NCBI RefSeq assembly: GCF_032362555.1
Contig: NC_083517.1
Location: 10,374,001 to 10,438,000, forward strand
Reading direction: 5' to 3'
DNA from: Amyelois transitella
Lineage: Eukaryota; Arthropoda; Insecta; Lepidoptera; Pyralidae
DNA: 64,000 bases
The notes beneath the pieces are model-generated. The model was not told the origin of the DNA and ran no database searches. It saw only the letters and a list, made by a program, of their open reading frames with translations. A program made the translations under genes and the position numbers. Each line of letters opens with the position of its first letter. Positions within the stretch are counted from its first letter, which is position 1. Of the stretch, positions 50,401 to 53,400 are shown in pieces.

Positions 50401-53400
50401 TTTCTACTAATATTATAAAGAGGAACAATCTATTTTTTTACATGTTTGTTTGTTTACACATGTAATCGATAAACTCCGAAACTACTGAATCGATTTCAAA
50501 CATTCACCATTAGAAAGCTACATCATCCCTGAGTAACACAGGCTATATTTAATTCCAGTTGTAACAAGATTTCAGCCTGTGGAAGAAAAAGCCCTGTCGA
50601 GATCATTAAAAAACGCTATATATAACCGAATTACACGTGGGCGAAGCCGCGGGCGGAAAGCTAGTAATATCTAAAAGTCTTTGAATTTATATTTATATAT
50701 TTTGCTACCTAATACATTTTTTGAAGAGCAACGAACTCGCATCTCTTTACTAATGGATGGCGTAAATGGTGACTAAGGGATAAGTCTATATACTTGGGAT
50801 TCTACTTTCAGGCGATGGGCTAGCAACCTGTCACTATTTGAATATCAATTCTATCATTAAGCCAAATAGCTGATCGTGGTCTTTTAGTCTTTTGAAAACT
50901 GTTGACTCTGTCTGTCCCGCGGGGGATATGGACGTGATCATATGTTGTGTTATGTTTTTCTAGAATTTGACATAAACTTGACCTTCAGGTGTAACGTAGG
51001 TAAAGTTTGTTCTTGGAATTTTTAGCAAAAAGTTTTTTCTCAATTGTATCAATAAGCCAAAAAGCTAAACGTGGCCTATCAGTCTTTTCAAGACTGTTGG
51101 CTCTGTCTACCCCGCAAGGGATATAAACGTGACTATATGTGTGTATGTATGCATGTAAGTTTTTACACTATCCCTTAAAAAATTGGCTTATTAAACGGGA
51201 CATATGTGACTTCAAACTTCAAATAATTTAAATAATCAAAATATCTCGGGTACATAAATATAAGTAAGTAGGTACTTTATTTTTTTGATCACGATGTTTA
51301 TACGACGCGATAACCCCTCCCATGTCTAGAAATTGTTAAGATTATAGGGGTCAACACAGATTCAAGGTTAAATCTTGAACCCTTGTACCGTGTGGTTACC
51401 GGCACTAATAAAAAAAAGATAGCATTAATCCATCTCGTTACCATGGATGTCGTAAAAGGCGACCAAGGGATAGGCTATCCCTTGGGTTGGCTTGGTTGGA
51501 CTTTTACGACATATAAACTTGGGATTGAAAGGGGTTTTGAAAGGATCCACGCTTAGATATCGGAGATTTTACTTTATAAAGCCCTACTCACTTTTCCAAA
51601 GTCAACGAAACAGCAACACCTAACCAGTTGACGATGCAATGTGGAGCATGCTAGAAAAGAAAAGAGATAGTGGCGAGGGTAGAGAGAACGTGAGACAGAA
51701 ATAGAATTCTTAAGAAGCCACTTACTATTGAAATGGTCCACCTGACCTGCAGCGCGTCAGCTATATCGCGTCGCTTCACGCATTGGACGCCAAGTTCTAT
51801 GGGAAGAAGAGATAGACAGGAACCACTCACTTTTGAAGGGATCCACTCTCAACTCCTCCCGGACTCTCAACGCCTCAGCTATGTCGCGTCGCTTCACGCA
51901 TTGGATGCCAAGTTCTTTGGGAACAAGAGATAGACAGAAACCACTCACTTTTGAAGGGATCCACTCTCAACTCCTCCCGGACTCTCAATGCCTCAGCTGT
52001 ATTGCGTCGCTTCACACATTGGACGCCAAGTTGTATGGGAACAAGAAGGGATAGACAGGAACCACTCACTTTTGAAGGGATCCACTCTCAACTCCTCCCG
52101 GACTCTCAATGCCTCGGCTGTATCGCAGCGCTTCACGCATTGGATGCAAAGTTCTATGGGAAGAAGAAATGGACAGAAACCACTCACTTTTGAAGGGATC
52201 CACTCTCAACTCCTCCCGGACTCTCAATGCCTCAGCTGTATTGCGTCGCTTCACACATTGGACGCCAAGTTCTTTGGGAACAAGAGATACACAAAATCCA
52301 CTCACTTTTGAAGGGATCCACTCTCAACTCCTCCCGGACTCTCAACGCCTCAGCTATGTCGCGTCGCTTCACGCATTGGACGCCAAGTTGTATGGGAACA
52401 AGAAGGGATAGACAGGAACCACTCACTTTTGAAGGGATCCACTCTCAACTCCTCCCGGACTCTCAACGCCTCAGCTATGTCGCGGCGCTTCACGCACTGT
52501 ATGCCGAGGTTCTTGAAGGCCACGCGGCAGTTCTCATCGGTGATGGTCTCCCGGACCGTGCACACGCCGCGCTGGCACTCCCGGCCGACCAGGTTGTGGG
52601 GGTGGGGCCTGGGGACAAAGTGCATTGTTATATAATATAACTTATGAGAAAATTGTTCCTAGGAGCTTGGTAAGTAATCATACACCAAAGTAGAAAGTTG
52701 AGTGATGTTAAGCCTGATATATTTAACTCAGACGAGAAGTGATGAGAGAAAATTATTTTAGCATAGATACACATACATACATATGGTCACGTATACATCC
52801 CTTGTTGGGCAGAGCCAACAGTCTTGAAAAGACTGATAGGCAACGTTCAGCTATTTGGCTTAATGATAGAATTGAGATTCAAATAGTGACAGGTTGCTAG
52901 CCCATCGCCTAAAAAAACAATCTCAAGTTTGTAAGCCTATCCCTTAGTCGCCTTTTACGACATCCATGGGAAATAGATGGAGTGATCCTATTCTTTTTTG
53001 TATTGATGCCGGGAACCATACGGCAAGTGCAAGCATATACAAACAAGTAGTTTTCCCTCACCGTTAGAGCATCGGTTAGTATTCAAACTAATGTACATAA
53101 CTTCGAAAATAGTCATTGGTCACCTACACGGCCGGGGTGGAATCGTGCCTTTATGCGCACCACGCGTTTTACCGACACACAGACGCTCCCACGATCAATT
53201 ACCAGTTTTGCTACTGAACATACAATTAAACAGCCATTAAATAAAGATTAAAACCGTATGCACACACACAGCTCGTATGGGTTATTCCCCACTATTTCAT
53301 TCACGACAACCGTAAACAACGTATGACTGAGGCTGCATGCAATCTATGACGTCGCGCAAAGAAAAAACAAACGTCGTTTTACCTCATTATTGTGACGTCA

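Follow-up and report, generated by a model that had tools for sequence, protein, structure and literature searches.

Duplicated exon boundaries in other genes

In human CBS, the VNTR c.1444_1467+7(16_21) is described as a 31-bp repeat that is present in 16–21 copies and whose number differs between chromosomes (PMC2630376). Its unit, to judge by the name given there, comprises 24 exonic and 7 intronic nucleotides with the donor, repeated head-to-tail (PMC2630376), which is also the arrangement of the array that we describe here behind an exon of the Rel DNA-binding domain (exon b) in a Dorsal-type gene. In this array, exon end and donor lie within the unit in six of six cases, and the units are head-to-tail (TRF, 6.3 copies at period 118). 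It differs from the CBS repeat in its longer unit (118/121 nt), in its copy number (∼5–6, as read from one assembly), and in the pyrimidine tract ahead of the body, by which we mean the exon-like part of each unit. By analogy, we regard the CBS 31-bp repeat as the closest known case, with the Dorsal array resembling it at a longer unit length.

A second CBS variant, 844_845ins68, is described as a 68-bp duplicated part of an intron/exon junction, of whose two splice sites one is strongly favoured; moreover, gene conversion templated by chromosomes of this type has been proposed (PMC2630376). A duplicated splice junction, a preferred site, and a proposed conversion make this variant similar to the Dorsal array, whereas its position on the intron 7/exon 8 side and its single extra copy, with no array, set it apart. 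In the intron described for a potato RdRp gene (PMC4974935), a tandem duplication across an exon/intron boundary places an AG and a GT around a piece of exon, as in the Dorsal copies. However, no new intron is evident in the Dorsal array, and a new spliced intron between its copies is unlikely, because the spacers measure 34–37 nt. Tandem duplicated alternative exons are stop-free, frame-symmetric copies that follow their parent exon. The Dorsal bodies are likewise stop-free, symmetric, and located behind their parent, but they copy only the 3′ part of exon b and cannot replace it in frame. Among the papers listed by our literature searches, we recognised none as an account of such a Dorsal array; viral, bacterial, and archaeal contigs, which gave 5 and 32 pattern stretches and no tblastn relative, were uninformative on insects.

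A Dorsal-type gene with an array behind exon b

The window, i.e. the whole 64-kb stretch of DNA that was analysed, contains a Dorsal-type Rel gene on its minus strand, comprising four exons (a, b, c, and d) and a later part from ∼45.6 kb. Exon a (54313–54161) has a translation ending in CVTKDEPF and leaves in phase 2 at CAA|GTGAGT; exon b (52608–52427; 182 nt), which encodes part of the Rel DNA-binding domain, enters in phase 2 and leaves in phase 1 at its genuine donor, AAAA|GTGAGTGG; exon c (47067–46838; 230 nt) enters in phase 1 and leaves in phase 0 at AAG|GTGAGG; and exon d (46351–46200) starts at 46351, its 3′ end not being fixed. The Dorsal identity proposed in the initial annotation was borne out by the joined translation of exons b and c, whose best solved relative is gambif1 (1bvo; E 4.9e-39) and which matches Pfam RHD_DNA_bind (PF00554; E 9.4e-35), so that a Rel DNA-binding domain is present. 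The Rel dimerisation domain (PF16179) gave E 0.00034 and 21 bits, under the 28.3 cut-off, on the ORF at 44305–45726 taken alone, without exons c and d. Silkworm Rel has isoforms A and B (PMC6274879), for which the passages of that source showed no tie to the exon-b array.

Behind exon b, its last 82 nt and the donor GTGAGTGG are found five more times, in head-to-tail units of 118/121 bp, as the initial annotation had described. The six AAAA|GTGAGTGG donors lie at 52427 (the genuine one), 52306, 52188, 52070, 51949, and 51831, in steps of 121, 118, 118, 121, and 118 nt. TRF scored the array at 1189 for period 118, 1207 for period 239, and 1308 for period 357, which excludes a chance origin; the top-scoring 357-bp period is a higher-order one of three units with spacers of 37, 34, and 34 nt. 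All five copied bodies are 84 nt long and free of stops in the donor frame (5/5), in agreement with the earlier description. They run from phase 1 to phase 1, and they owe their length and frame symmetry to one base that the copies (AACTTGGC) lack near their start relative to the genuine exon (AACCTCGGC).

On the minus strand, the array begins directly behind exon b with spacer 1 (52426–52390; 37 nt, ending in AC) and body 1 (52389–52306; 84 nt plus donor), followed by spacer 2 (52305–52272; 34 nt, ending in CCCAAAG) and body 2 (52271–52188; 84 nt), spacer 3 (52187–52154; 34 nt, ending in CCCATAG) and body 3 (52153–52070; 84 nt), spacer 4 (52069–52033; 37 nt, ending in AC) and body 4 (52032–51949; 84 nt), and spacer 5 (51948–51915; 34 nt, ending in CCCAAAG) and body 5 (51914–51831; 84 nt). 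After spacer 6 (51830–51797; 34 nt, ending in CCCATAG) comes body 6 (51796–51726), a degenerate and shortened copy of 71 nt that is followed by GTAAGTGG and retains a match at E 1e-7. Farther on, a probable exon-end relic at 51553–51535, also on the minus strand, agrees at 17/19 nt and lacks the donor (E 0.013 against the unit and 0.022 against exon b). The gaps of 34–37 nt claimed between neighbouring bodies thus measure 37, 34, 34, 37, and 34 nt ahead of bodies 1–5, and an AG directly precedes three bodies, as claimed (bodies 2, 3, and 5), whereas bodies 1 and 4 are preceded by AC.

Two earlier claims on reading frame held in part. The bodies were said to keep the phase of the genuine exon, which is correct for their end (phase 1) but not for their start (phase 1, against phase 2 in exon b). 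Mutually exclusive use was consequently rejected: exon a ends in phase 2 and the bodies start in phase 1, so that no body can replace exon b in frame. Further, unit lengths of 1 mod 3 apply to single units, whereas three units (357 nt) equal 0 mod 3; in-frame readthrough of three units was nevertheless rejected, because the frame is lost through a stop in body 1. Splicing between neighbouring bodies was set aside on account of the 34–37-nt spacers.

Variation among the copies

To locate variation, the genuine end of exon b and bodies 1–5 were compared over 82 nt, with body 6 left out for its deletion. Thirteen of the 82 sites vary, all of them within the first 42 nt (P 5.7e-5 under uniform sites), and the 10 sites that vary among the copies alone cluster in the same way (P 6.9e-4). 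Codons 1–14 contain eight synonymous and five nonsynonymous variable sites, and codons 15–27 contain none of either kind. Accordingly, the last 40 nt of the body and the 8-nt donor are invariant across the six good exon ends, the first eight intron bases agreeing in 6/6. Since this exon-end/donor block is constant at synonymous sites too, homogenisation at the DNA level, rather than selection on the protein alone, is indicated. Uniform homogenisation of the unit would, however, leave invariance confined to the 3′ side unexplained, and selection on the 3′ block is possible.

Bodies 2 and 4 are identical, though their neighbouring spacers differ. Conversely, the noncoding spacers 1 and 4 are identical at 37/37 nt, and the bodies after them differ at five sites. 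Three pairs of sites within bodies 1–5 violate the four-gamete condition, as do 45 pairs in the five spacer-plus-body units when gap columns are counted. Judged from these sequences, the copies are mosaic, in that no single copy tree fits them and exchange between units does. Spacer 1 directly abuts the genuine exon; therefore, such exchange, or a recent duplication of a block, reached the end of the genuine exon itself. Relative to exon b, bodies 1–4 differ by 1, 3, 3, and 3 amino acids, respectively, whereas body 5 differs by none and is the nearest to the exon: over codons 1–27 it shows four synonymous changes, all inside the first eight codons, and no nonsynonymous one.

Base composition of the parent exons offers a hint of direction. 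In a contrast that was sought post hoc and is small in effect, third-position GC was lower in the duplicated half of exon b (20/27 vs 32/33 codons; P 0.018) and of exon c (14/24 vs 44/53 codons; P 0.026), with P 0.0034 for both together, whereas exons for which no copies were found showed no such drop (exon a, 18/24 vs 19/26; exon d, 23/24 vs 26/26). This fits copies that feed sequence back into exons b and c.

A half-exon copy after exon c

Exon c is followed on the minus strand by a half-exon copy of its own (46767–46699), which consists of 69 nt after CCCCAG, reads 23 aa, and has AAG|GTTTAA in the place of the donor; such duplications therefore arise in the Dorsal-type gene without an array. 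Over 72 nt, the copy differs from exon c at three sites, all of them synonymous, and its amino acids are identical. Its flanks align at 26/36 and 41/51 bases, so that 3/72 body bases differ as against 20/87 aligned flank bases (Fisher P 0.0006). Random stretches equalled the downstream flank in 10/5000 cases globally and 11/5000 locally, and the upstream flank in 70/5000 globally and 557/5000 locally; because of the latter count, homology of the upstream flank is not firm. If copy and flanks have the same age, an untranslated copy should have accumulated ∼6 to 8 nonsynonymous changes, yet it shows none; selection, conversion by exon c, or a more recent origin of the copy could each account for this.

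Donors were scored with a consensus matrix against a background of 3461 minus-strand GTs. The donor place of the exon-c copy scored 0.10, no better than ∼41% of these GTs, compared with 10.79 for exon c, and we therefore doubt that the copy is spliced as an internal exon. The pyrimidine content before its AG is 0.41. In the region 46568–47125 (minus strand), a retained intron start after exon c would keep the frame open through the half-exon copy, giving a stop-to-stop ORF of 185 aa.

Origin of the array and alternative explanations

Taken together, the array is probably an exon-boundary minisatellite, i.e. a passive array whose copies are homogenised by recombination while the genuine donor is used. 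Minisatellite growth had been offered in the initial annotation as the null, beside two functional readings, and it is the one of the three that best fits the mosaic copies, the identical bodies and spacers, and the block that is invariant at synonymous sites. What follows on how the copies arose, in which direction conversion ran, and which donor the cell uses is our inference. The first step would have been a tandem duplication of ∼34 nt of intron together with the donor and the ∼84 nt of exon b that precede it; the five good units, the degenerate end unit, and the 357-bp higher-order period may then have come from later rounds of unequal exchange. The exon-end/donor block would be kept uniform by recombination, either conversion or unequal exchange, in which the genuine exon end probably takes part. 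Because the coding sequence of exon b itself contains an AG (AAG|AAC), its fusion to the start of the intron would have created the acceptor-like AG and the pyrimidine tract as side effects. The array would be tolerated because the first exon copy remains intact.

Whichever of the five copied donors exon b is lengthened to, translation ends at one and the same stop in body 1 (5/5), and the genuine donor therefore presumably wins despite five identical ones behind it. Its proximity to the acceptor of exon b would be the simplest reason for this choice, with the copied donors mainly bystanders. The synonymous bias of two copies counts against a passive array. Under a rough model for untranslated copies, in which 40% of changes are assumed to be synonymous, the seven changes in body 5 (four) and the exon-c copy (three) would all be synonymous with P 0.0016 (7/7), and conversion or selection must therefore be invoked.

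The copied donors may instead act as decoys, with repeated 5′ splice sites recruiting U1 snRNP and thereby either strengthening the definition of exon b or diverting part of the transcripts to stop-containing forms, so as to tune Dorsal dose. The sequence gives this reading several points: (i) the six donors are identical over the exon end and eight intron bases, (ii) each of them is in the best 0.81% of the 3461 minus-strand GTs and has the same U1 pairing energy (−6.8), (iii) spacers and body starts are variable but the donor block is constant, (iv) lengthening to every copied donor (5/5) yields a stop, and (v) GTGAGT has one further occurrence in 47068–51740. However, the invariance extends 40 nt into the body, beyond the needs of a donor, as is expected from homogenisation, and we consider a decoy role unlikely. 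That the extra copies are an artefact of collapsed or mis-joined alleles seems highly improbable. Body 5 and the exon-c copy do differ from their exons only synonymously, as divergent alleles would, but the sequence ahead of the bodies is unlike that ahead of the exon-b half, the mosaic units and the degenerate end copy are present, and, in our judgement, the number of synonymous changes (four over 27 codons, confined to codons 1–8) seems large for alleles.

Optional cassette exons were also weighed. In this reading, the AG of body 2, 3, or 5 would serve as acceptor for the genuine donor or for that of a body, so that the K and T on either side of the b/c junction would be separated by 28 aa; a similar 23-aa cassette would follow exon c. 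Placed between exons b and c, the stop-free, phase 1-1 bodies of 84 nt (5/5) would preserve the reading frame; splicing of the genuine donor to body 2, 3, or 5 would remove an intron of 155, 273, or 512 nt, respectively; and the pyrimidine contents before the three AGs (0.76, 0.88, and 0.82) compare with 0.59–0.76 at four genuine acceptors. Synonymous-only differences in body 5 and the exon-c copy, and the excess of flank over body changes in the latter (20/87 vs 3/72; Fisher P 0.0006), agree with translated copies. Further, p50 presumably has a natural insertion near the position matching the b/c junction (residues 60/61), at which most p50 rows, matching in two stretches and best from query residue 67, likewise hint. 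Nevertheless, we hold such cassettes to be very unlikely: an AG precedes three of five bodies, while the donor is kept in all five, and AC stands before bodies 1 and 4; gaps between neighbouring bodies are just 34–37 nt; the exon-c copy combines a donor place scoring 0.10 (against 10.79) with a pyrimidine content of 0.41 and an upstream flank whose homology is not firm (70/5000 globally, 557/5000 locally); an insert would duplicate conserved Rel-domain sequence; and invariance at synonymous sites is not predicted by protein selection. Similarly, it is very doubtful that the half-exon copies form a working reservoir, some being spliced as inserts of 28 aa (exon b) or 23 aa (exon c) and also rewriting the parent exons at their 3′ ends by conversion; if that were true, the DNA-binding domain of an NF-kB protein would be partly written from its own introns.

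Equal tandem donors that directly follow a DNA-binding-domain exon constitute a natural test of the choice among identical 5′ splice sites. Moreover, exchange of sequence between array and exon, if it occurs, would show how changes can pass from an intronic repeat into a conserved domain of a protein, as has been proposed for human CBS.

Other features of the window

Exon b and its array are flanked by oppositely oriented copies of an interspersed repeat (52771–53025, 51038–51148, and 51388–51476); 25 further blastn rows in the window belong to this repeat, some of them perhaps fragments of one copy. If paired in RNA, the flanking copies could loop out exon b. A hairpin dedicated to exon b was considered and dropped, the inverted repeats being pieces of the interspersed repeat. 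Elsewhere, a 395-aa ORF at 42863–44050 (plus strand) resembles, as we take it, a mariner transposase, and long ORFs at 39338–42524 and 55789–58800 (both minus strand) resemble proteins of non-LTR retrotransposons. Long degenerate arrays of the GTGTGTGTCC type, with a strong strand skew, occupy 2405–4998 and 16511–17312.
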